From: a virus
IMG/VR virus record: IMGVR_UViG_3300044821_000131
Location: 1-64,000 of that record
Length of the DNA stretch: 64,000 bases
Strand: one strand, 5' to 3'
Numbering within the stretch: the stretch's first letter is position 1; the number at the start of each line of letters is the position of its first letter. The notes under the pieces were generated by a model. The model saw only the letters and a list, made by a program, of their open reading frames with translations, was not told where the DNA came from and did no database searches. Below, in pieces: positions 3,586-54,991 of this stretch. A program made the position numbers and the translations under genes.

Positions 3586-4782
3586 ATGGCGCATTATCTG
3601 ACAGAACAAGAAAAGCAGGTAGACGTACAGATGGGATCCAGTGCGCCATCGGTATTGGACCCAGAAATCCGTAAGCTGGCTGAAGAACTTAGCACAATTC
3701 ACGGGACCGTACGGATCACTCGTGAAAGTAACGGTGTGCATCTGTATATGGCTTGTCCAAACTGTCTGGAGACTTACGGGTCAGACGAGTTGTTCAAGAT
3801 GCACCTGGCCATAAACGCCGAGAAGTATTTGACCACCGATAACAACGTAGTTGGCATGTGCATGAAGGAAGGCGACAAGTTCAACGTTCTGGACTTGAAA
3901 GCCATGCCTCCTCTGAACGTTCGGGGCCACGAACACAAGCCGGCGGTGGTAATGCATAAAGAGGCAAACGAGAAGTATCTGGAACCAGATCAACACGGTG
4001 TAATGGTCCCGAAGAGCCCGGGTAAAGTTATTCCGGTTCAGGAACTGACGAACGACCATCCTGCCATAATGTATCTGAACTCTCGTAATTTCGACGTGTC
4101 ATCGCTGGCAGATCAGTTTCGGTTGTCTTATTGTGAACAGGAACGTGACGACATATTCTACCGAAAATTGCCGGGTGGTTTTCGGGCGACACCTCAAGGC
4201 CGCTTGGTATTTTATATCGTTCAAAAAGGAGTTGTCGTAGGATGGCAGGCTCGTATTTTGGAAATTGTAAATGATGGTCTGGTCTGGTACTGGCATCCGT
4301 ACAAGAAGTCTTGGACGCCCGTATTACAGACGCAGCCTGACGCCAAACCTTCCCCACTTCCCGGATGGGAGGAGTGGGATCCCGCCAAGTACATCTTGGC
4401 TCATGGTTGTGCACGTAATGAATGCCTTATGGGTTACGACGCGGCGGTGGCTTACAATGTTCGTACTAATGAAGGTTGGTGTGGCTTGGCTGAAGGGCCT
4501 TTGGATGCCGGACGCTGCGGCGCACCGATTATGGCGACGATGGGTAAGTTCTTCAGTGAGTCGCAAGCCCGATTGATTAAGGACGCCGGGTTCTCCAAGG
4601 TGATTTACATAGCGGATAGTGACGCAGCTGGTGAGAAGGGGAAGGCGTATGTGTGGAAGCAGTTTCAGTTTTTGGATATGGCCTCTAAATTAATTGTAGT
4701 CAACCCTCCGGCTGGGTATAAAGATCTTGGCGAGATGCCAGATCAGAACACGGCACGCGAGTACATTTTGTCGCATCTGTGA
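3586..4782 (+). CDS. DnaG-type DNA primase (zinc-binding plus TOPRIM)
   Basis: Synthesises RNA primers for lagging-strand replication. The N-terminal half has a zinc-binding arrangement, C57-x2-C60 (CPNC) with another Cys near 92. The C-terminal half is a TOPRIM domain: catalytic Glu in EGPLD (E303) and the metal-binding pair D344-S-D346 in YIADSDAAGEKG. At 398 aa it is primase only, without a helicase domain of the T7 gp4 kind; a replicative helicase must be elsewhere. It lies just upstream of the HerA-like ATPase and within reach of the polymerase gene. Confidence 0.8.
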   Translation: MAHYLTEQEKQVDVQMGSSAPSVLDPEIRKLAEELSTIHGTVRITRESNGVHLYMACPNCLETYGSDELFKMHLAINAEKYLTTDNNVVGMCMKEGDKFNVLDLKAMPPLNVRGHEHKPAVVMHKEANEKYLEPDQHGVMVPKSPGKVIPVQELTNDHPAIMYLNSRNFDVSSLADQFRLSYCEQERDDIFYRKLPGGFRATPQGRLVFYIVQKGVVVGWQARILEIVNDGLVWYWHPYKKSWTPVLQTQPDAKPSPLPGWEEWDPAKYILAHGCARNECLMGYDAAVAYNVRTNEGWCGLAEGPLDAGRCGAPIMATMGKFFSESQARLIKDAGFSKVIYIADSDAAGEKGKAYVWKQFQFLDMASKLIVVNPPAGYKDLGEMPDQNTAREYILSHL

Positions 4783-4816
4783 ATAAAAGACATTTTGACG
4801 TAGCACTGATTAACCA

Positions 4817-6556
4817 ATGAAAAATAGAATACTTCTAGGTGGCGGCGGTTCTGGGGAGGTTGCTATAGACCTTCCGACGCTCATCAAAACCAGGCTTCTA
4901 ATTCAGGCAAACTCCGGAGGAGGAAAGAGTTTTCTTATACGGAGATTGGCTGAACAGCTCTTCGGTACGGTGCCGGTTATCATCATCGACCCCGAAGGTG
5001 AATTCGCCACACTCCGGGAAAAATATGACTACGTCCTGGCGGGTCCTGGTGGTGAAACTCCGGCGGATATACGATCTGCAGGATTGCTGGCGCATAAGTT
5101 GCTTGAGCTGCGAGCTTCCGCAGTGTGCGATTTGTATGAGATGAAGCCTCAAGATCGGCATCAGTGGGTAAAACTTTTCTTGGATTCGTTGATAAATGCA
5201 CCTAAGAAATTGTGGGGCCCAACTGTCGTAATAATTGACGAAGTGCATCAATTTTGTCCAGAGAGCAAAACTGGCGAGAGCGTCGCCAGTGGTTCGGTAG
5301 TAGATTTGGCCACTCGTGGACGCAAGCGTGGCTATTGCAGCATATTCGCCACGCAACGTCTAGGTAAGTTGCGCAAGGACGCGGCGGCAGAGTTGCTGAA
5401 TGTCATGATCGGCATGACGTTCATAGACATTGATCGTGATCGGGCGGTAGATAGTCTGGGCGTTAGTCGGGAGGAAAAGCAGCGCTTCAATAACGAGATC
5501 AAGCTCTTGGAACCCGGTAATTTCTACTGCCTCGGTCGAGCTATCTCCAAGGACCGACTGTTGGTTAAAGTGGGTAGTGTGCTTACTACTCATCCTGAAG
5601 CTGGTGGTAGCAAGTTTACGCTGGTTCCGCCGTCACCAGCGGGTATTAAGGCATTATTGCCCAAGTTGGCAGATTTACCAAAAGCTGTGGAAGAACAGGC
5701 AACCACCGTTGCCGGCTTAAAACAAACTGTAACCGGTTTGCGTCGAGAGATATTGGAATTGAAAAAGGCGAAACCTCCTACTGCAGAACCGTCAAAAGTG
5801 TTGCCGGTTAAATCTGAGTCGGCGCTTTCAGGTAAGGATCGGGCGAGTCTGGCCAAGTTAGGTTCAATAATGGGCCGCGTAGACGGAGCCTGCGAGAAAT
5901 TGACTCAGCTGGGACAGACCCTTAATTCGGAACTCTCCTCTATCAAATCGTCACTGTCGAAAATTTTGTCATCTGACTCGTCTGTTAGAGTACCAACGGT
6001 TAAAACTACGTCGCCGGTTATGGTCAAACCGATGCCCGTCGTGATTCGCGAGGTTTGGAGAGATACGTCCGAGTCAGAAAGTGCTGACTATAAGCCCAGC
6101 AAGTGTCGTCAGAAAATTTTGGGTGTTCTTGCGCAATATCCTGACGGCTGTACGATTGGCAAGATTGCACTCCTGTCGGGGTATCATGTTAGTGGTGGGT
6201 TCAAGAATGAACTGGCTTATCTTCGTACGCACGGACTTATTCTTGGTGGCAACACAGAGCTGATGCGCATTACGAGCTTAGGCTTGGAGAAAGGACCGTT
6301 TGATGCGCTTCCAGTCGGTTCGGACTTTGTTAATTATTGGATGAGTCATTCCAGTTGTAGTTTATGTATGCGTCGTATTATGCAGTCACTTATTGACAAT
6401 CCTGTCGGTCTCGACATATCGAAATTGGCTGAGGCGTCTGGGTATCAGGTCTCTGGCGGATTTAAGAATGAACTGGCACGACTGAGGACGGCCGGACTTC
6501 TGGTTGGTAAGAATACTGGGACGATGACATTAGCCGAGGAGTTTTTCAATGCATAG
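4817..6556 (+). CDS. HerA/DUF87-like DNA-translocating ATPase with C-terminal tandem domains
   Basis: N-terminal ATPase of the HerA/FtsK type: Walker A SGGGKS at residues 33-38 and Walker B VVIIDE with D141-E142. HerA ATPases move along DNA and work with nucleases in end processing. A linker of about 150 residues contains a heptad-rich stretch (VAGLKQTVTGLRREILELKK). The C-terminus carries two similar domains of about 60 residues (about 430-490 and 517-577), each with SGGFKNELAxLRTxGL, resembling winged-helix DNA-binding units. Position between primase and polymerase suggests genome processing or repair. Packaging is an alternative role. Confidence 0.7.
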   Translation: MKNRILLGGGGSGEVAIDLPTLIKTRLLIQANSGGGKSFLIRRLAEQLFGTVPVIIIDPEGEFATLREKYDYVLAGPGGETPADIRSAGLLAHKLLELRASAVCDLYEMKPQDRHQWVKLFLDSLINAPKKLWGPTVVIIDEVHQFCPESKTGESVASGSVVDLATRGRKRGYCSIFATQRLGKLRKDAAAELLNVMIGMTFIDIDRDRAVDSLGVSREEKQRFNNEIKLLEPGNFYCLGRAISKDRLLVKVGSVLTTHPEAGGSKFTLVPPSPAGIKALLPKLADLPKAVEEQATTVAGLKQTVTGLRREILELKKAKPPTAEPSKVLPVKSESALSGKDRASLAKLGSIMGRVDGACEKLTQLGQTLNSELSSIKSSLSKILSSDSSVRVPTVKTTSPVMVKPMPVVIREVWRDTSESESADYKPSKCRQKILGVLAQYPDGCTIGKIALLSGYHVSGGFKNELAYLRTHGLILGGNTELMRITSLGLEKGPFDALPVGSDFVNYWMSHSSCSLCMRRIMQSLIDNPVGLDISKLAEASGYQVSGGFKNELARLRTAGLLVGKNTGTMTLAEEFFNA

Positions 6557-31903: not shown

Positions 31904-32110
31904 ATGAAGTATTTTGTAAATGGACATTGCTTGAATCCAAAGGCAAACGATGACCTTGTTGTGCCACCGCTCTGTGCGTGCTGCCATAAACCACAGCATA
32001 AATGGAACACCATGCGCGTTCTCGGATGCGGTGGAGATTACGAGGACTGGCCGTGTAGACTGTGCCAGCCAGAAGAATATGAAAAAACTTTACGAGACGC
32101 CTATCTCTAG
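31904..32110 (+). CDS. Small Cys-rich protein, 68 aa
   Basis: Contains CACCHKPQH and CRLCQPEEY: paired cysteines and His suggest one zinc site. It is the last gene before the first attC-like island and has phage-like codon use. Function unknown. Confidence 0.5.
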   Translation: MKYFVNGHCLNPKANDDLVVPPLCACCHKPQHKWNTMRVLGCGGDYEDWPCRLCQPEEYEKTLRDAYL

Positions 32111-32240
32111 TCGGCACGATATAAAAGCTGAGCCGCAGCCAACTAATGATAGTCATGAACCAAATGACTCCTGCGGATAAACAGAACGCGCCAATAGAGC
32201 GATTTGATGCTCCACCGGGCTCGGCGGAGCGTGCTGGCCA
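32111..32240 (+). repeat. Possible degenerate attC-like remnant (left edge of island A)
   Basis: The stretch CCAATA...CGATTTGATGCTCCA...CCGGG...TCGG at about 32190-32226 resembles the right arm of the site at 42442-42552 (CCAATACCGATTGTTCTCCA...CCGGGTTCGG). No convincing left arm is present, so this is a weak call. Confidence 0.3.
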
Positions 32241-32454
32241 GAATATGGAACGCGTTTTTAGGTGGTCTAAGGTCTGTGACTGTAAATCCACCGCGTCAAC
32301 GTGTGAAATTCGATGCAAGGGCGAATACGTCAACGCCACATGGACGATGACTGCGACATTTTACCCAATGCTTTCTTGCGATGAATGCGGCGCGACATGG
32401 AAACTCGACGCAGTTAACGTGGGAGTTGACCTACAGTCCCGCCGAAAGAAATAA
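32155..32454 (+). CDS. Island A ORF 1: zinc-ribbon-like protein, 99 aa
   Basis: Starts MNQMTPADKQNAP; has CDCKSTASTC and SCDECGATW cysteine groups suggesting a zinc ribbon. An in-frame ATG at 32146 is an alternative. First gene of a 1.7-kb island with codon use richer in AAA/AAC/GAC than neighbours. No family recognised. Confidence 0.5.
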   Translation: MNQMTPADKQNAPIERFDAPPGSAERAGQNMERVFRWSKVCDCKSTASTCEIRCKGEYVNATWTMTATFYPMLSCDECGATWKLDAVNVGVDLQSRRKK

Positions 32455-32487
32455 AAATATGGTATTAACTCAATAGACCAACGACCA

Positions 32488-32751
32488 ATGACACCAAACC
32501 AAGCCAGAGATGGACTGCTCGAAGCCATGCCGCTGACAACGGAAGCGGTAACGACGATAAAGAAATGGGGACGGGAATGCTCTGATGAGCGCAAGGCTGA
32601 CCCTGAAACCTACAATAAATGCCCGCGCTGCTATGGTCTCCACAGCATCCGTGGAAACTTCGACAACCTGTGTGATGGGTGCGTGAAAACAATCCTCGAA
32701 CACTTCCCAAACCATGAAAGCGTGCCGCACATCAAAGCAGCACTCGCTTAG
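32488..32751 (+). CDS. Island A ORF 2: hypothetical protein, 87 aa
   Basis: Contains NKCPRCYGLH and LCDGCVKTILEHF, a possible zinc ribbon. The stop codon lies in a 27-base sequence repeated at the end of the next ORF, where it is read in another frame. This indicates the repeat is a DNA-level boundary element rather than shared protein sequence. Confidence 0.5.
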   Translation: MTPNQARDGLLEAMPLTTEAVTTIKKWGRECSDERKADPETYNKCPRCYGLHSIRGNFDNLCDGCVKTILEHFPNHESVPHIKAALA

Positions 32752-32766
32752 ATGTTTAACGTCCGC
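32740..32766 (+). repeat. 27-bp boundary repeat, copy 1
   Basis: Identical to 32990-33016 (core GCTTAGATGTTTAACGTCC). It supplies the stop codon of ORF 2 and is followed by CCGC...GCGG, then the next ATG 20 bases on. Confidence 0.8.
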
Positions 32767-32785
32767 ATGAGTCGCGGTAAATCGT

Positions 32786-33007
32786 ATGGACATCACAAAA
32801 TTAAGCATTAAAGAATGTGCGGAACTTCAATCGCACGAAGGCAATTCCGAACTGGACAGGCGCGTAATGGAAGAACAGGACCGCATCGTTCGACTTTCCA
32901 TTGAGCAACTCACGGCGCTCTTGCTTGCCAGAAGTATTCGGCCAGATAAAACCGACATCAGGCTGAGAGCGGTAAGAGATGAACTCCTCACTCGCTTAGA
33001 TGTTTAA
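32786..33007 (+). CDS. Island A ORF 3: hypothetical protein, 73 aa
   Basis: Charged helical protein (MDITKLSIKECAELQSHEGN), no cysteine cluster. It ends within the second copy of the 27-base repeat, read in a different frame from ORF 2. No family recognised. Confidence 0.5.
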   Translation: MDITKLSIKECAELQSHEGNSELDRRVMEEQDRIVRLSIEQLTALLLARSIRPDKTDIRLRAVRDELLTRLDV

Positions 33008-33016
33008 CGTCCGCAG
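32990..33016 (+). repeat. 27-bp boundary repeat, copy 2
   Basis: Same 27 bases as 32740-32766. Followed by a small CCGCA...TGCGG hairpin and the ATG of the next ORF at 33038. Confidence 0.8.
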
Positions 33017-33037
33017 AATCCATGCGGCGATTTCAAA

Positions 33038-33295
33038 ATGACATCCAAAATTGCAACTGAACCGTTCAAGCACGGGAACAACCCGCATTGGCTTCATGCG
33101 GTGGTTCGGCGACTGGTTGCATGTCTGCACGTTCACCGCTGGGAAGAAACGCTTTGGAACGCATGGGGCATAGACGTGGAGCAACGCTGCCGCTGCGGTC
33201 AATACCGGCATCACCTGTTTGAGCATCGTCGCGGTTTCTGTCAAGAACCAAACTGGCAACTTGGAAAACATCCCAACCGATACATGGCAAAATGA
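33038..33295 (+). CDS. Island A ORF 4: hypothetical protein, 85 aa
   Basis: Contains LHVHRWEETLWNAWG and QRCRCGQYRHH, a pattern like short prophage proteins with HxW...CxC. ATGA-coupled to the next ORF. Function unknown. Confidence 0.5.
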   Translation: MTSKIATEPFKHGNNPHWLHAVVRRLVACLHVHRWEETLWNAWGIDVEQRCRCGQYRHHLFEHRRGFCQEPNWQLGKHPNRYMAK

Positions 33296-33591
33296 ACACT
33301 GATAATAGTCGAAAATATGAAAACGAAAATAAGATATTCGGATATGAATGGTCGGACATCCAGCGAGCGCAGCAAGGCGGAAGGCTGGCGCAGCCAGTCC
33401 GAACCGGCAACCTAAACGCATCGGTGCAATGCTTCCGATGTCACAAATACTTTCGGCTGCCGCAAACGATGGAAACCGACCCGTGGCCGGTGCAATGCCT
33501 TCACTGCGGCTATATGCACACGTCGCATGACGGAGAATCGGCTATGTGGCCGAAATGGGGCGATGATAACAAATGGCATACAGTGGCCTAA
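33292..33591 (+). CDS. Island A ORF 5: zinc-ribbon protein, 99 aa
   Basis: Two CxxC pairs, QCFRCHKYF and QCLHCGYMH, form a likely zinc ribbon. Its TAA stop is formed by the GCCTAAC left end of the attC-like site at 33586, the usual geometry of integron gene cassettes whose ORF runs up to the recombination site. Confidence 0.55.
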   Translation: MNTDNSRKYENENKIFGYEWSDIQRAQQGGRLAQPVRTGNLNASVQCFRCHKYFRLPQTMETDPWPVQCLHCGYMHTSHDGESAMWPKWGDDNKWHTVA

Positions 33592-33694
33592 CGCCGTGCG
33601 TGAGCCATCCCGGATTCACGACACACAACAATCAAAAACCTGAACGAATAAAGTGCAGCGGCCAACCGGGATTGGCTCGACGCACTTGTTAGGC
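33586..33694 (+). repeat. attC-like site A1 (109 bp)
   Basis: Left arm starts GCCTAAC and right arm ends GTTAGGC, perfectly complementary. Inner arms GAGCCATCCCGG and CCGGGATTGGCTC pair except for one extra base in the right arm. Folded stem of 28-29 positions around a central spacer of about 50 bases: the layout of a 59-base element. The bulge is on the right arm, so canonical orientation would be the minus strand. Confidence 0.7.
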
Positions 33695-33704
33695 AGCACG
33701 GTTT

Positions 33705-33827
33705 ATGAAAACAAAACCAATGATAACGGAAACAGTGACACTCTCTTTTGAGGTGAAGCTCAACTACCAAAACGATGAAGGCCGGGCATGGCTCGTAAAA
33801 TCGCTGAAGCGTGATGCTCGGAGATAA
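33705..33827 (+). CDS. Island A ORF 6: short protein, 40 aa
   Basis: Starts MKTKPMITETVTLSFEVKL eleven bases after the attC-like site and ends SLKRDARR. Length is small, but the placement right after a cassette boundary matches the other island ORFs. Confidence 0.4.
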   Translation: MKTKPMITETVTLSFEVKLNYQNDEGRAWLVKSLKRDARR

Positions 33828-33878
33828 GGAAATAGGCCGCACAGCCTTTGCTCTGAACCGTCTAAAGGAAATTTTGCC

Positions 33879-33912
33879 GAACAGTTGATTCTACCAACTT
33901 GGTTGGTTTATT
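33879..33912 (+). repeat. Shared island-end sequence, copy A
   Basis: GAACAGTTGATT...ACCAACTTGGTTGGT...TTTA, matching 43357-43390 at the end of island B. It includes a short palindrome ACCAAC/GTTGGT. It may be the original insertion target or a phage operator left at the island edge. Confidence 0.6.
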
Positions 33913-39262: not shown

Positions 39263-39787
39263 ATGAAGATACATCTTTTGGTTGGCCAGCGAAAAGAGAG
39301 CTATGCTGGCGAGTTTGCTCCTGAAGTTTTGGAAGCCATAGACGAATTCGGTAATTGCGAAAATGCCGGCGAATGGCTGCAGGGTAAGATGAAGGAGTAC
39401 CGCGTTGACGCTTCTTTTGAAGCACTAGTCATAGTTACATTGGAAGTTCCTACACTTAAAATTTTGGAACGTTTACGTCCGAATAATGAACCTATTGTCG
39501 CCGAGGTGGTAGACACAGATTTATTGACCCTATATCTAAAAGATTCAGACGGTATTTGGAAATCACACAGCTACGAAACGTTATCCGATTTGGCCGGGGA
39601 GTTTGCCAAACGTAACATAAAAATCGGCAATGACGTGAAGATCGGCAATTTCGTGAAGATCGGCAATGACGTGACGATCGGCAATCGCGTGGCGATTGGC
39701 AATGACGTGATGATCGGCAATCGCGTGACGATCATTGATAACACATGTATACCTCCGGAGCTTATCATTCAAAAAAGACTAAGCTGA
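39263..39787 (+). CDS. Hexapeptide-repeat protein, chimeric and truncated (copy 3)
   Basis: Differs from the other copies at both ends. The first about 80 residues (LVGQRKESYAGEFAPEVLEA, EYRVDASFEALVIVTLEVP) are a separate short phage-protein domain. It is followed by the family N-terminal block (LYLKDSDGIWKSHSYETL) and six hexapeptide units. The C-terminal domain is missing: the frame runs into NTCIPPELIIQKRLS and stops at a TGA in the sequence AAGCTGA that also ends the ORFs at the attC-like sites in 42.1-42.5 kb. So a cassette-type rearrangement probably removed the original 3' end. Confidence 0.7.
   Translation: MKIHLLVGQRKESYAGEFAPEVLEAIDEFGNCENAGEWLQGKMKEYRVDASFEALVIVTLEVPTLKILERLRPNNEPIVAEVVDTDLLTLYLKDSDGIWKSHSYETLSDLAGEFAKRNIKIGNDVKIGNFVKIGNDVTIGNRVAIGNDVMIGNRVTIIDNTCIPPELIIQKRLS
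39620..39727 (+). repeat. 18-bp coding tandem repeat, 6 units
   Basis: Six units in frame with copy 3, after which the repeat decays into non-family sequence. Confidence 0.9.
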
Positions 39788-39896
39788 GACATCGGCACGG
39801 TCGAGAAATGACGGATACATTTGAAATCGCAACCAAACTAAAATCTATGGCCTATGGAAAGAGTAGTGCCGATTGTTCTCCAACACCGTGTTCGGC
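39780..39896 (+). repeat. Partial attC-like site B0
   Basis: Inner left arm AAGCTGAGACATCGGC and right arm CCGATTGTTCTCCAACACCGTGTTCGGC closely match the site at 42442-42552, including the extra bases on the right arm. The outer left end (RYYYAAC) is missing, replaced by hexapeptide-gene sequence: a junction or deletion scar. Confidence 0.55.
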
Positions 39897-41675: not shown

Positions 41676-41882
41676 ATGACTGAAACTCCACAAACCAAAA
41701 AAACTCTGCTGCCGAAATACGAAGACGGAAGCGGATATAGGATCGAAAGAGAACTGTGTGTCTTCTGCCACAAACCGCTGCTCGACTCATTCCACTTTGC
41801 CAGCGATGACGGTAAGCAACACTGGCACACATACTGCGCAAACAGAAAAGGCGTAACGTCCCGGATGAGCCGCCCGCGATAG
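41676..41882 (+). CDS. Island B ORF 2: small Cys/His protein, 68 aa
   Basis: Contains LCVFCHKPL and HWHTYCANR, a likely zinc-binding set (CxxC, HxxxC). Its end passes through the left arm of the site at 41851. No family recognised. Confidence 0.5.
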   Translation: MTETPQTKKTLLPKYEDGSGYRIERELCVFCHKPLLDSFHFASDDGKQHWHTYCANRKGVTSRMSRPR

Positions 41883-41959
41883 GCGACTCACGAACACCAA
41901 AAGATTTATGATCAAAAAGAAAGCGTCAACGCGGGTTGGCTCCATCGGGCGGGTTATGC
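41851..41959 (+). repeat. attC-like site B1 (109 bp)
   Basis: Left end GCGTAAC, right end GTTATGC; arms pair as GATGAGCCGCCCGCG against the complement GATGGAGCCAACCCGCG, again with extra bases only on the right arm. Same length as site A1. The next ORF's ATG is inside the terminal GTTATGC. Confidence 0.65.
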
Positions 41960-42135
41960 CTCAGTTGGTGATATGCGACCATCATGGGCATGACTACTGC
42001 GAGGGATGCCAACATAACGAACCCCACAAAGCAAACAGTGAGGACGACGGCGAACTCTGCACATGCGGCGGAGTCTGTGGGGCAAACGGGCCAAACTTCA
42101 ACGTGCGCTGCCTGCGACATAACGCCTCAAGCTGA
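41956..42135 (+). CDS. Island B ORF 3: Cys/His-rich protein, 59 aa
   Basis: Starts MPQLVICDHHGHDYCEGC at the core site and has ELCTCGGVCGAN. Two clusters of Cys/His suggest zinc. It ends HNASS because the next attC-like left arm encodes the last residues and stop. A start at 41908 is possible but lies inside site B1. Confidence 0.5.
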   Translation: MPQLVICDHHGHDYCEGCQHNEPHKANSEDDGELCTCGGVCGANGPNFNVRCLRHNASS

Positions 42136-42262: not shown

Positions 42263-42460
42263 ATGATTCCGAAGCCTGTAAAAAAGGCGATCAAAGAATG
42301 GCGGGCCATCACAAGTCCAATGGAGAAAATCGGATTCATCCTGCACGCTTTCGACCCGACAATACAGTTCCGCTGTCCCGACAGTAACCGAGTGTTTGAT
42401 ATGTCAATAAGTGCCGTCAAACGCATAAATGCCGCCTTGTCGCCTAACGCCTCAAGCTGA
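42263..42460 (+). CDS. Island B ORF 4: hypothetical protein, 65 aa
   Basis: Starts MIPKPVKKAIKEWRAITSP; basic and helical. Ends NASS, identical to ORF 3, because both stops are formed by the attC-like left arm ending AAGCTGA. A cassette-sized unit between sites B2 and B3. Confidence 0.55.
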   Translation: MIPKPVKKAIKEWRAITSPMEKIGFILHAFDPTIQFRCPDSNRVFDMSISAVKRINAALSPNASS

Positions 42461-42552
42461 GACATCGGCGACCTGCGATGTCCAGCAACCCAAAACCTTA
42501 TGCTCAAAACTGAAAGCGCCAATACCGATTGTTCTCCAGCGCCGGGTTCGGG
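42442..42552 (+). repeat. attC-like site B3 (111 bp)
   Basis: Left end GCCTAAC, right end GTTCGGG; inner arms GAGACATCGG against complement GAGAACAATCGG. Closely related to partial site B0 at 39780. The right-end core deviates from GTTRRRY. Confidence 0.6.
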
Positions 42553-42851
42553 TGCTGGCTTGGATAACTGAATGGGTCGAAGCAATCTGGAAGGCGTTTC
42601 GACCGCCAAAACGGAAGCGGCTGGAACTGCGGCTCTGCACATGGACTGCCGCAGACAAGCTGATTCGGGAAGGTGGCGGCGCTTGGACGGTAGCCGCCGA
42701 AGATGACCACAACATGGTGCTTGGGTGTGTGTGGTTGGAACGCCTGGAACAATATCCCGACTTCTCGAAGCAGCAGTCGAACGGTGAAGTCAGCGATGGC
42801 GGGACGCTGACTTCCGAATTGAAATCCAAACGCGAACCCGCCATTCGCTGA
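42552..42851 (+). CDS. Island B ORF 5: hypothetical protein, 99 aa (GTG start)
   Basis: Reads from GTG directly after site B3: MLAWITEWVEAIWKAFRPPK. Tryptophan-rich and basic at the start, acidic later. Its 3' third overlaps site B4. The same frame continues upstream through site B3 to 42429, which is unlikely to be translated. Confidence 0.45.
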   Translation: MLAWITEWVEAIWKAFRPPKRKRLELRLCTWTAADKLIREGGGAWTVAAEDDHNMVLGCVWLERLEQYPDFSKQQSNGEVSDGGTLTSELKSKREPAIR

Positions 42852-42861
42852 ATTGTTATGG
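42776..42861 (+). repeat. attC-like site B4 (86 bp, overlapping a gene end)
   Basis: Left end GTCGAAC, right end GTTATGG; inner arms CAGCGATGGCGGG and CCCGCCATTCGCTG pair with one extra base on the right. The following ATG is within the GTTATGG core. Confidence 0.55.
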
Positions 42862-43124
42862 CACTAATACACGAAGAAACTGAACACGAGCTTGGAGCGA
42901 AACTGATGGTATCGGAACGCCAAGAAGGTGAAACCCGCGCCCCGTGGAAAATCATCACGCTCGACGCAGACCGATTCGAGAATCTAACACCAACGGAACT
43001 CCGAAAGCTCGGAAAGTGGCTCATACACCAAGGGAGGCGCATCGGAAGTGAATACAAGTCCAACGGTGCGTTGAAGGCCAAGAGCCATAACGAAAAGCTG
43101 ATCGACAGCGGAAGGAAATTATGA
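42858..43124 (+). CDS. Island B ORF 6: hypothetical protein, 88 aa
   Basis: ATG lies in the core of site B4. Soluble and charged (LGAKLMVSERQEGETRAPWK), ending LIDSGRKL. ATGA-coupled to the next ORF. No family recognised. Confidence 0.5.
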   Translation: MALIHEETEHELGAKLMVSERQEGETRAPWKIITLDADRFENLTPTELRKLGKWLIHQGRRIGSEYKSNGALKAKSHNEKLIDSGRKL

Positions 43125-43357
43125 GCTTTAAAAACGGCGGATATAACAACGGGCTTGGTCGGCCAAAGGCGAAGAAGCTGTTCGCTCCGGCGCGTTGTTC
43201 TACGGCGTGGTTGAGCGTGGAATCCCGTTGGCCAGTCAAGGGTGAACTCGAAACCAAAAGATGCCTGACAATCCTAGACGCGGTAATAGAAGGAAAACGC
43301 GCCCTCCAATGTGGGGCGTGGCGCGTAACAATAACTCAGTGCAACGGAGCGCCGTAG
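43121..43357 (+). CDS. Island B ORF 7: hypothetical protein, 78 aa
   Basis: Starts MSFKNGGYNNGLGRPKAKKL, basic. Near its end GCGTAACAATAACTCAG resembles an unpaired attC-like left arm. It stops where the shared island-end sequence begins. No family recognised. Confidence 0.45.
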   Translation: MSFKNGGYNNGLGRPKAKKLFAPARCSTAWLSVESRWPVKGELETKRCLTILDAVIEGKRALQCGAWRVTITQCNGAP

Positions 43358-43390
43358 AACAGTTAATTAAACCAACGTTGGTCGTTTAAC
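43357..43390 (+). repeat. Shared island-end sequence, copy B
   Basis: GAACAGTTAATT...ACCAACGTTGGT...GTTTAAC, matching 33879-33912 at the end of island A. Contains the palindrome ACCAACGTTGGT. Confidence 0.6.
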
Positions 43391-43440: not shown

Positions 43441-44985
43441 ATGACCGACGACGTAGCCGCACCCCCGGGAGTGGAAATTACAGCTTGGGATGACTTTCCC
43501 AAGAAACGCCAGCAGATTCTCACTGGCGCTAAAACTGCCCTGCAAGAATCATTTCCCCAATCCTATGGCGGGGTGCGGCTTGAACTACACGACCTCGATT
43601 ACGACAATCCCAAGGAATTCACATTGTCGGAACAGAAGGACGCCCTGATGAAGAACCAGTTTCTCCATCACAAACTCAAGGGTACGTTAAAATTATTCGA
43701 TGAGAAAACCGGTGCGTTGCTGGATCAGAAAACTCAGACGCTCATGCGAGTTCCTTACCTTACCGAGCGTGGTACATTTCTACATAATGGTAACGAGATC
43801 ACCACCAACAGCCAGGCTCGGCTCATGCCGGGCATCTATACGCGGCGTAAGAATTCTGGTGAAATTGAGTCTCAGGTGAACGCCAAGCGTGGATCGGGAT
43901 CATCCTTCCGTGTACGTCTCGAACCCGAGTCCGGTTTGTTTAAGGTCGACATCGGTCAGAGTAGTCTGCGGCTTTATTCGTTGTTGAAAGATATTGGAGT
44001 GTCCGATCAGCAGATTGAGAAGACTTGGGGACCAGAACTGTTGAAGAAGAATCAGGACTCCTACGATGCCAGGGTGTTCGAGAAGGCTTACGATCGATTG
44101 GTGCGGCGTCCCGATCCGAAGGCCACGCGCGAGCAGAAGGTAGAGGCAATCAAGCAGGCTTTGGACAATACGCAGGTGGATCGGTCGGTGGTCATGAGGA
44201 CATTGCCGAATCTGTTCGCCACCAAGTTCTCCTCGATGTTGGCATTCGATCCTACCATGCCTCGGCCGCAGAGCGAGAAGAAGGAATTCAATCACGACGA
44301 TTGCCTGATGCTGGCGGAGCTGTTGAATCAGAAGTTTCATGCTGGCATTCCGTTGGATGCCCCGACCTCAGAGATCGTAGCCATGGTGATGGGTGAAATA
44401 CAGAAGCTCATGCCGTCGGTGAATGAGCAGATGCTGGCACAGACTGTAGGGCAACAGCAGAAAGAGGCGCGATCGAAACAAGGTTATCTGATGTTGAATT
44501 TCGAACCGGAAGACGCCATGAGGTTTTCCAAGTGGTCAAGGCAGAATATCCCGGATTCGAAACTGGGTGCGTCCGGACGTGAAGACACCCCGCATATCAC
44601 TTTGCGTTGGGGTATCAACACGGGTGATATTGGGCACCTGAAATCATTCTTCTCAGAACAGTCCCCAGTCCAAGCCACGCTCGGCGCTCTGACTCGATTT
44701 CCTGGCGTCGACGACGGAAACCAAGATGCACTAGTGGCGCCGGTAGAGTCCGAATCCATTCACAAGCTACACCATGCTGTCGTATCGACGTTTCATTCTC
44801 ATCTCGGACCCGTCAAGTTCAATACCTACCGGCCACATGTTACTCTAGCCTATTTAAGGCGTGGCGAGATGCCGGAATTGGAAGGTAACAAGGAGTTTCA
44901 TGGCCAGACATTCCAGTTGAAGAAGGTGGTGTATTCCAATCCTCGCACCAGCTCGTATATTGACATTCCGCTGGGTACAAATTAG
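43441..44985 (+). CDS. RNA polymerase beta-subunit N-terminal part fused to a 2H phosphoesterase
   Basis: Residues about 45-200 match the start of bacterial RpoB: MRVPYLTERGTFLHNGNEIT and NSQARLMPGIYTRR correspond to the PLMTxxGTFIINGxERV...QLxRSPGVYF block, then FRVRLEPESGLFKVDIG and LRLYSLLKDIGVS. Residues about 355-514 are a different domain with two H-x-T/V-L signatures, TPHITLRWG (H385) and RPHVTLAYL (H466), the 2H phosphoesterase (LigT-like) pair acting on 2',3'-cyclic or 2'-5' RNA ends. Such a fusion could clean RNA ends or protect phage transcripts. The rest of beta continues in a separate gene at 45712. Confidence 0.7.
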   Translation: MTDDVAAPPGVEITAWDDFPKKRQQILTGAKTALQESFPQSYGGVRLELHDLDYDNPKEFTLSEQKDALMKNQFLHHKLKGTLKLFDEKTGALLDQKTQTLMRVPYLTERGTFLHNGNEITTNSQARLMPGIYTRRKNSGEIESQVNAKRGSGSSFRVRLEPESGLFKVDIGQSSLRLYSLLKDIGVSDQQIEKTWGPELLKKNQDSYDARVFEKAYDRLVRRPDPKATREQKVEAIKQALDNTQVDRSVVMRTLPNLFATKFSSMLAFDPTMPRPQSEKKEFNHDDCLMLAELLNQKFHAGIPLDAPTSEIVAMVMGEIQKLMPSVNEQMLAQTVGQQQKEARSKQGYLMLNFEPEDAMRFSKWSRQNIPDSKLGASGREDTPHITLRWGINTGDIGHLKSFFSEQSPVQATLGALTRFPGVDDGNQDALVAPVESESIHKLHHAVVSTFHSHLGPVKFNTYRPHVTLAYLRRGEMPELEGNKEFHGQTFQLKKVVYSNPRTSSYIDIPLGTN

Positions 44986-48420: not shown

Positions 48421-50004
48421 ATGAATTTTACTGAGAAATTGGCCGTCTATCTCAAGGCGGCGTATCCCATAATTGGCGTAGAGACGTACGAAGAAGGGCG
48501 TCTGTTGGAGACTGGAATTTATCCATTAAAAATGCCGGTTGAGCGCCGTCTATACCAGTGGGATTGCGCCACCGGTATGGTCGACACAACTGATCGAAAT
48601 AAGCCGGTGAAGCTGGACAAGACCGCGGATCCAATGGCTATGTTGGCCATCGTCTCTGGTAACGTTGAGAGCGCCATTTTCGTGCTAAAGGACATCCACG
48701 CGCATTTCAACAACGTCCGGCACATACGGATGCTTCGGTCTATGATTAAGACGTTATCGAACCGTAAGCAGACCATCGTGCTTGTGGCGCCGAGGCTGAA
48801 CCTTCCGTTTGATCTCCAGAAGGATGTTCAGATGATGGACTTTGCGCTGCCTACCAAAGCTGAATTGTCGGCCATGACAGAAACTTTTATCGAAACTTCG
48901 ATTCGGCGTAATGAGAACGCCGCGTACAAGGAGTTCCGTTTGTCGTTGTCCGATCGCGAGGCCATCGTCGAAGCAGCCACCGGCATGACTAGTATTGAGT
49001 TCTGTAACGCCTTGTCGTCTTGCTCCATTGGACAGAGCCAAGATAATGGCAAGCTTACGATGACCGGTGATTTCCCGAAACGCATCTTCGACGAGAAAAT
49101 TATTAATCTGAAGAATGGATTACTGGAGTACGTACCGGAGGCTGGTGGTTTCGACACGATCGGTGGTCTAACCCCAGTCAAGGAGTGGGCGAAACAACGC
49201 CGTCTCGGTTACGAGGAAGTCGCGCGCAAGGCGCACCTGCCATATCCTAAAGGCTGTCTCTTGGTAGGCTTGCGCGGATGCGGCAAATCGGTTCTGGCCA
49301 TGGCTATCGCTCAAGCATTCAACTTCCCGTTGTTCAAACTGGATATAGGCAAGATCTTCGGTAGCAAGGTGGGTGAATCCGAAGGCAATGTTAGAGAACT
49401 CATCCGTCTATTGGAAGGTCTCGGTCGTGCCGTCATCTACATGGACGAAATTGAGAAAGGTCTCAATAACAGTGCGGCGTCTGGTCAAGGTGATTCCGGC
49501 ACAGGTTCCCGGGTATTCGGGACTCTGATCTCTTGGATGGCCATTAAGAAGTGTCCGGTGTTTCTTATCGGTACAGCTAACAATATTGATGTCCTGCCAC
49601 CTGAGTTGATTCGTAAAGGTCGGTTCGATGAGATATGGTGGGTGGATCTGCCGACGTCCGAGGAGCGGGTGGATATCTTCAACAAACTGCTACAACACAA
49701 GTTTCAACGTGAGTTTGAGGTGACTGGCGTCAAAGACAAACTGATAACCAGCACCAAGGATTACAGTGGCGCCGAGATTGAGGCGGTTATTGAGGCTGCG
49801 TTGTATGAGATGTTGTCTTCCAAGGATAAGAATTTCAGGAAGATTCTGGAGTCGACGATCGAGCGTACCGAGCCACAGGCTCAGATCAATCCAGAGTATA
49901 TAAACAAGATGCGGGAGAAGTCTAAGGCCGGTTATCGCAAGGCTAATGATCCCGAAGTTCATAATGCAAGTGTATCAAACATGTATCGGAAGGTTCAGTT
50001 ATGA
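48421..50004 (+). CDS. Ycf46-type AAA+ ATPase, 527 aa
   Basis: N-terminal 250 residues are a family-specific domain (AAYPIIGVETYEE, then FVLKDIHAHFN). The C-terminal AAA+ module has Walker A GLRGCGKS (K289), Walker B AVIYMDEIEKG (D342-E343) and sensor/arginine-finger region LPPELIRKGRFDE. The best match by pattern is the Ycf46 group, whose exact role is unknown but which often occurs with DUF1257 and DUF2997 proteins, as here (51883 and 52230). The upstream start at 48391 overlaps the terminator. Confidence 0.75.
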   Translation: MNFTEKLAVYLKAAYPIIGVETYEEGRLLETGIYPLKMPVERRLYQWDCATGMVDTTDRNKPVKLDKTADPMAMLAIVSGNVESAIFVLKDIHAHFNNVRHIRMLRSMIKTLSNRKQTIVLVAPRLNLPFDLQKDVQMMDFALPTKAELSAMTETFIETSIRRNENAAYKEFRLSLSDREAIVEAATGMTSIEFCNALSSCSIGQSQDNGKLTMTGDFPKRIFDEKIINLKNGLLEYVPEAGGFDTIGGLTPVKEWAKQRRLGYEEVARKAHLPYPKGCLLVGLRGCGKSVLAMAIAQAFNFPLFKLDIGKIFGSKVGESEGNVRELIRLLEGLGRAVIYMDEIEKGLNNSAASGQGDSGTGSRVFGTLISWMAIKKCPVFLIGTANNIDVLPPELIRKGRFDEIWWVDLPTSEERVDIFNKLLQHKFQREFEVTGVKDKLITSTKDYSGAEIEAVIEAALYEMLSSKDKNFRKILESTIERTEPQAQINPEYINKMREKSKAGYRKANDPEVHNASVSNMYRKVQL

Positions 50005-54571: not shown

Positions 54572-54991
54572 GGGCACGTACTGGTATCGATTGTTGTTGG
54601 GACTGAAAGACTGCGTGTAGCGGATGGTCGTTGGCCGCTTTAAACTCCGACCAAAACGAAAACGCTAATAGCGGATTCAATATGGGGCCAAGTGTGGCCG
54701 AAGCTGACGCGCTCCTCGCTAAGTTCGGATACACTGAAGCCGTTCTGGCCTGATTAAACAGGCCTCCCGATCTGCCGGGTTAGATGCTCGCTATACCGGC
54801 GGATCGTCACCAGCGAGACCAAGCCTTGGATAGGGCAACGGCTGTTTTTCTGAACAGAGCCGAGAATCTGGTTGGGAGTTTGTCTGAAGCTGGTTGTCGG
54901 TCCTTTCAGGCAGAGTATAAAATCGAATACACACGTAGCGGTTTGAAGCACTAGCAGCAAGACAGGGGTTCGACTCCCCTCGTGTCCACCA
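54572..54991 (+). ncRNA. ssrA: Phage-encoded transfer-messenger RNA
   Basis: 420-nt gene. The 5' end GGGCACG pairs with CGTGTCC before a templated ACCA (7-bp acceptor stem, one G-U). Next to the 5' end is CTGGTATCGATTG, the usual tmRNA D-arm-like start; the 3' end has the T-arm AGGGGTTCGACTCCCCT. Inside, a reading frame including NENANSGFN and ending KFGYTEAVLA stops at 54751-54753, the stop lying in the hairpin GGCCTGATTAAACAGGCC, the helix 5 position. The tag is longer than typical (about 30 residues). It rescues stalled ribosomes and tags nascent proteins for proteolysis; the SmpB partner would be host or elsewhere. Confidence 0.85.

Follow-up and report, generated by a model that had tools for sequence, protein, structure and literature searches.

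Cassette islands in the phage genome

The stretch of DNA analysed here (the window, 64,000 bases) comprises bases 1-64000 of a virus record of 204,257 bases that encodes a terminase, a DNA polymerase, a primase and a UvsX-like recombinase. Two groups of small genes and attC-like sites, islands A and B, lie within it, each closed on its right by an attI-like sequence (Table 1). In island A, the initial annotation had described six small open reading frames (ORFs), several of them with zinc ribbons. The six ORFs are present and CxxC motifs are visible in several, but the Pfam matches fall below the curated cut-offs. It had also described a hairpin with perfectly complementary 7-base ends and bulged inner arms; its coordinates and ends are borne out by the sequence (GCCTAAC at 33586-33592, GTTAGGC at 33688-33694), the extra bases of the inner arms are confined to one side, and the preceding ORF does take its TAA stop from the left box. 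The element thus combines R boxes of the form RYYYAAC/GTTRRRY, paired inner arms and extra-helical bases, the structure of an attC site.

Table 1. Coordinates of features in islands A and B and nearby (positions in the window unless stated).
Position	Strand	Feature	Evidence or remark
32146..32454	+	Island A ORF, 102 aa	
32488..32751	+	87-aa ORF of island A with CxxC motifs like those of a zinc ribbon	Without Pfam family
32741..32767	+	27-base direct repeat, copy 1	Covers the end of a gene, the GTTTAAC R box and the first part of an attC 5' arm
32786..33007	+	Island A ORF, 73 aa	TAA stop within GTTTAAC box
32989..33015	+	27-base direct repeat, copy 2	Overlaps start of decayed attC
33002..33110	+	Decayed attC, GTTTAAC ... 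GTTCGGC	R2 E 8.3e-5 in 204 kb
33038..33295	+	Island A ORF, 85 aa	Start inside decayed attC
33292..33591	+	Island A ORF, 99 aa, zinc-ribbon-like	TAA stop within GCCTAAC; Zn_ribbon_4 E 0.03, below cut-off
33586..33694	+	Intact attC site, island A	Structural scan, shuffles, folding, covariance models
33705..33889	+	Final cassette gene of island A, ahead of attI-like site	40-aa ORF, apparently frameshifted, frames read by eye
33876..33909	+	Right end of island A, attI-like, GCCGAA^CAGTTGATTCTACCAACTTGGTTGG...	Matrix score 34.6, best of 204 kb
39777..39896	+	Weak, degenerate attC-like site between islands	R2 E 0.0018
41851..41959	+	attC of island B; with the gene after it, unit common to L015 and L016	R1 E 3.7e-8
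41908..42135	+	75-aa cassette gene	Two further phage contigs carry it at 88% identity
42117..42236	+	attC, island B	R1 E 1.2e-8, R2
42442..42552	+	attC, island B	R1 E 7.7e-7, R2
42776..42862	+	Decayed attC, island B	R2 E 3.2e-5
43085..43203	+	attC, island B	R1 E 1.1e-4 (match at 43084), R2
43354..43387	+	Right end of island B, attI-like, GTAGAA^CAGTTAATTAAACCAACGTTGG...	Matrix score 30.1
G000:64010-64040 (L002:10-40)		Third attI-like site, just past window end, motif 64014	Score 24.0

In a structural scan for consensus boxes with a scored inner stem, run on both strands of the 204,257 bases, this was the sole site with at least 6/7 R-box pairs and at least 10/12 inner matches. None of 40 shuffles reached its 7 + 12 (shuffle maximum, 7 + 10), and on each strand all of 200 shuffles folded less well than the site itself (z -3.6 and -4.3). 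The attC-like reading also survived a covariance-model scan, in which a model built from 25 bacterial sites, none of them from the window or from a virus (R1), returned the hairpin as the top match of the 204-kb record (E 1.8e-11), and a phage-trained model built from 150 viral sites, none of them from the window (R2), returned it with an E value of 1.3e-15. Sequence and predicted fold identify the 33586-33694 hairpin as an attC site of the integron type.

The remainder of island A is less well preserved. The site at 33002 folds poorly and scores E 1.4 in an unfiltered R1 search, the site that begins in the first copy of the 27-base repeat has, by eye, no recognisable 3' half, and a doubtful attC relic lies near 32111-32237 (E 2.1). 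In the last cassette, whose end boxes GTTAGGC and GCCGAAC match at 6/7 positions, the second reading frame, again read by eye, terminates as LPNS* within the attI-like site. Island A alone holds one intact and one decayed attC; it is partly decayed, looks older or more worn than island B and, as a single one of its several sites is intact, may be a relic. The earlier description of island A as a cassette island holds, but it had missed the decayed sites and the attI-like end. Protein searches found no relatives of the 33292-33591 ORF in viral contigs, phages or plasmids, blastn of 32000-33800 gave no match in phages or plasmids, and megablast of 30-45 kb gave none in phages. A-T skew marks both islands, yet is not unique to them.

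All five plus-strand R1 matches below E 1e-3 in the 204 kb fall in islands A and B. Other R1 matches below E 0.3 lie in island B on the same strand, except for the reverse strand of the 33586 site (E 0.0063), and the one remaining match, at 48612, is at chance level (E 0.39). R2 adds the sites at 42776, 33002 and 39777, and nothing more up to E 5 in the 204 kb. Taken together, islands A and B contain at least two attC sites without intI, the arrangement that defines a CALIN.

Other features of the window include an ORF at 39263-39787 in which six 18-base repeats (39605-39748) encode hexapeptide repeats (Hexapep E 4e-9) and are not an attC feature, and an ORF after island B (43441-44985) with an RNA ligase-like domain in its C-terminal third (phrog_755 E 9e-11). 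A tmRNA gene with the tag ARYTGGSSPARPSLG lies at 54572-54991 and was the only match in an Rfam scan; no tRNA genes were found in the window.

The attC family, its integrase and the attI-like array ends

The R1 helices covary, with 94.9% of cells paired and a covariation score, inflated by relatedness, above those of 500 of 500 shuffles. A search pattern describing the 3' half of the attC, TTGGCTCSRNSNNYTTGTTAGRC, matches 33 stretches in viral contigs (30 contigs by count) and 91 in bacterial contigs, of which 66 belong to Verrucomicrobiota, as counted from record titles. By this sequence census the attC family is mainly verrucomicrobial. Eleven of the 91 (L062, L065, L067, L074, L080, L086, L091, L092, L112, L122 and L124) come from one Oscillospiraceae metagenome-assembled genome (MAG) with a different-looking site; these, together with L054, L082 and L131-L141, were left out of the R1 searches among L051-L141. 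The Oscillospiraceae MAG carries many copies of a site GTATAACAAGGGAGGCAAGCC ... GGCTCGGCCCCCTTGTTAGAC, possibly another repeat element. In viral loci, R1 gave 159 matches at E <=0.01 in 39 loci, arranged in tight same-strand clusters. One of these phages (G038), 46 kb long and encoding terminase, portal and major head proteins, has six attC sites and another (G034) has more than a dozen; a terminase domain exceeded its cut-off in 6 of 30 viral attC records, the others of which may be fragments or misclassified.

In bacteria, this type of attC site is linked to intI. Thirteen of 25 bacterial genomes, versus none of 25 viral records, scored above the cut-off for the integrase family TIGR02249. 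At seven of these 13 bacterial loci, attC lay within the fetched flank 5' of intI, each time on the same modelled strand (the position used for L151 is that of the TIGR02249 family match). Searches of the 204-kb record, which may be incomplete, with TIGR02249 (intI) and PF00589 gave no match, so no tyrosine recombinase was found there. The record therefore carries sites and no enzyme, and, as far as it extends, lacks the intI in cis of a complete integron.

Both islands end in a related sequence directly after an R box: AACAGTTGATTCTACCAAC in island A (33880) and AACAGTTAATTAAACCAAC in island B (43358), where the box, GTAGAAC, is complemented by the end box GTTCTAC of the 43085 attC. Elsewhere in the window there was no match to this motif with fewer than 3 mismatches (shuffle mean, 0.53 matches). 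With a matrix built from 10 other viral loci, the three top-scoring places of the 204 kb are 33880, 43358 and 64014, in that order; the next score is 14.4. An R2 search found no attC near the third of these sites. The reading frame that precedes it ends in its GCCTAAC box. A scan of viral sequences for the motif yielded 104 stretches, 80 of which were fetched. R2 found attC in 11 of the 80 (L239 and L256 among them being near-copies); the 69 loci without attC may be chance matches. In all 11, the nearest attC lies upstream on the same strand, 160-1677 bases away, with an end box complementary to the attI-like box, and no intI exceeded the cut-off in these 11 records, in which two weak partial matches were seen. 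In 10 of the 11, the longest frame that runs open into the site terminates at AAC-AGT-TRA, so that the attI-like site seems to supply a stop codon for the inverted genes described below.

In bacteria, intI-proximal and array-end sites share with these sequences the box followed by CAGT and a subsequent inverted repeat. A matrix from 11 such bacterial sites ranks the ends of island A 12th, of island B 59th and the third site 2nd of 408,474 positions, a modest similarity. Given the top ranks with the viral matrix and the modest ones with the bacterial matrix, the predicted role of the attI-like sequence as a conserved array end is well supported, and a role as functional attI less so. The AACAGT box alone was rejected as an attI marker; it is not specific, RYYNAACAGT occurring 11 times in the 204 kb.

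Cassette units, their probable exchange and gene polarity

IntI is known to cleave at G^TTRRRY, the complement of which is RYYYAA^C. If this is where cassettes are cut, each should carry at its far end a box that matches the end box of its attC. This is what we observed: among discordant segments, the far cassette box was a closer match to the end box than the attC's own start box was in 54 phage segments (the reverse in 7) and in 73 bacterial segments (the reverse in 5), and permuted R-box controls were at the within-site level. Units thus run from one predicted IntI cleavage point to the next and carry complementary boxes at their two ends, and this linkage across the cassette implies that a unit consists of an attC and the gene downstream of it, in the attC orientation used here. 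The arm that carries the extra-helical bases agrees with this, on a comparison with the aadA7 site. The cassette reading of the initial annotation is upheld, with one correction: as the unit is an attC plus its downstream gene, the gene that ends at 33591 belongs to the previous cassette.

One island B unit, 41855-42124, is shared with two other phages, at 93% identity with L016 and 91% with L015. It starts at GCGTAA^C, GCCCAA^C or GCAGAA^C and ends at CATAA^C, followed by three different sites, so its limits are the predicted cleavage points RYYYAA^C, with AA^C on both sides. The 33586 attC itself recurs, at 87-95% over its length, in six other phage contexts (L044; L050/L033; L048; L032/L016; L042; and L029/L022/L047/L039, in the last four of which the start box is degenerate). 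The matches end at or near the limits of the site and the neighbouring genes differ among the six groups; in L050 the gene before the site encodes an N6/N4 DNA methylase (PF01555, E 2e-18). The initial annotation had named a hairpin conserved at a fixed locus as the finding that would speak against it. That is not what we found, both because the site adjoins different genes in other phages and because L014, a distant relative (38% amino acid identity in the flanking gene) and the one relative found, keeps the flanking genes with no attC between them. When viral cassette ORFs were compared with 110 host loci, 0 of 79 matched, so cassette flow between phage and host was not seen.

The orientation of genes relative to attC differs between phages and bacteria. 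In bacterial arrays the genes lie mostly on the strand opposite to the modelled attC, the usual integron arrangement, whereas in phage arrays they lie on the same strand. By longest ORF with a margin, 52 phage segments were plus, 13 minus and 34 undecided, versus 16, 107 and 33 in bacteria; a codon model gave plus:minus ratios of 52:2 for phages and 9:44 for bacteria among decided segments (45 and 103 undecided). Counted by locus, 20 of 21 phage loci were plus and 17 of 20 bacterial loci minus, although loci are not fully independent. At the level of sequence, phage cassette genes are thus inverted relative to attC when compared with bacterial cassettes. The same test applied to the window is weak: the longest ORF favours the minus strand in 2 of 3 island B segments, the codon model decides one of the three (plus) and leaves two undecided, and several plus ORFs of island A have codon scores at or below zero. 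Plus-strand coding in the window is instead suggested by third-position differences (9 of 12 relative to L016 fall at third codon positions), by the cysteine motifs and by the codon model, in which the antisense ORFs score strongly negative. An in-frame ATG lies within attC for 26 of 52 genes. We do not claim attC as a source of N-terminal tags, since no preferred reading frame through it was found (the three frames are used by 17, 16 and 19 genes).

Interpretation and relation to known integrons

We propose that islands A and B form an integrase-less phage integron that would be served by a host IntI in trans, a reading to which we assign a probability of roughly 0.78. The phage has sites and an attI-like docking sequence but no integrase of its own, so that the integrase of a host is probably borrowed, to swap small genes with other phages. 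The host is likely verrucomicrobial, as we infer solely from the attC family. The cassettes would be small genes, each joined to a verrucomicrobial-type attC and stacked against the attI-like site. In an infected cell with a chromosomal IntI, attC on the phage coding strand would fold as single-stranded DNA, and the host IntI would cut at RYYYAA^C and join cassettes to the attI-like site of the phage or to other attC sites; phages of one host pool would thereby exchange small accessory genes. Being inverted relative to attC, these genes would be read with phage transcription, and may use stop codons from the R box of the next site or from attI. In this scheme we infer the action of IntI in trans, the expression of the cassettes and the function of their cargo.

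The strongest competing explanation, which we regard as unlikely, is a passive CALIN relic, in which cassettes entered by off-target or illegitimate recombination and are now immobile and decaying. The lack of an integrase in the phage record, the decayed 33002 site and frameshifted last gene of island A, and the weak scores of about half of the window's sites would all fit such a relic. Yet the 33586 site is intact and 92-95% identical in most of the other phages that carry it, amid different surrounding genes, the shared unit ends exactly at a cleavage point, and attI-like sites are conserved at the island ends. It is improbable that the exchange between phages arose by ordinary homologous recombination, with attC sites as mere homology patches and nothing site-specific about them. 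Phages are mosaic, and the attC sites are similar enough to one another to seed such events, but the boxes match better across the cassette than within attC (54 versus 7), and the breakpoints fall at RYYYAA^C rather than anywhere within the 109-base site. Finally, a fortuitous hairpin, terminator or coding artefact at 33586, to which its folding on both strands and its place between genes might point, has a negligible chance of being correct given the structural scan, shuffles and covariance-model search, which exclude chance, and the matches across unrelated phages and bacterial integrons.

Beyond this phage, we lean, by a narrow margin of belief, towards a phage-specific class of non-autonomous integron that would be widespread in phages of Verrucomicrobiota, with its own attI type and attC subtypes, inverted cassettes read with the phage operon, stops from attI or the R box, no integrase, and a gene pool shuffled between unrelated phages by host IntI. 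If true, phages would be users of the bacterial integron, beyond mere carriers, with the host enzyme as a gene-shuffling service, which would explain tiny accessory genes and DNA methyltransferases common to unrelated phages. Because one attC type occurs with many genes, the system also bears on how cassettes and attC come together.

Phage attC clusters as such are already published (PMC9892861). Qi et al. 2023 (PMC9892861) describe 17 phage CALINs, and in their recombination of phage attC with attI1 by IntI1, 5 of 6 tested sites recombined. Those CALINs resemble the islands in being attC clusters without integrase, with cassette genes that include methyltransferases; they differ in that the sections considered here describe no attI-like site in an integrase-less phage and no inverted polarity, and a search for Verrucomicrobia in the paper gave no occurrence. 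Among the open-licence papers listed in literature searches, none concerned verrucomicrobial phage integrons, attI in integrase-less phages or inverted cassettes, which is weak evidence of absence. The chromosomal integrons of Verrucomicrobiota (MAGs) share with the islands the attC family, RYYYAA^C junctions, R-box linkage and attI candidates with CAGT beside the box, but they have intI, the usual gene orientation in 44 of 53 decided segments, and no cassette genes that were found in common with the phages. Also close to the islands is a phage contig with portal, terminase and Mu Gam-like genes (G046/L028, IMGVR_UViG_3300025162_000136), which by its sequence carries a complete integron: positions 3659-5983 hold three attC, a cassette encoding a DNA methyltransferase, an attI-like box and the gene of an IntI-like integrase, all in one direction. 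It shares the attC family, the attI-like box and the inverted genes with the window phage, and differs from it in having the IntI-like integrase (TIGR02249 263.6 bits, cut-off 265).
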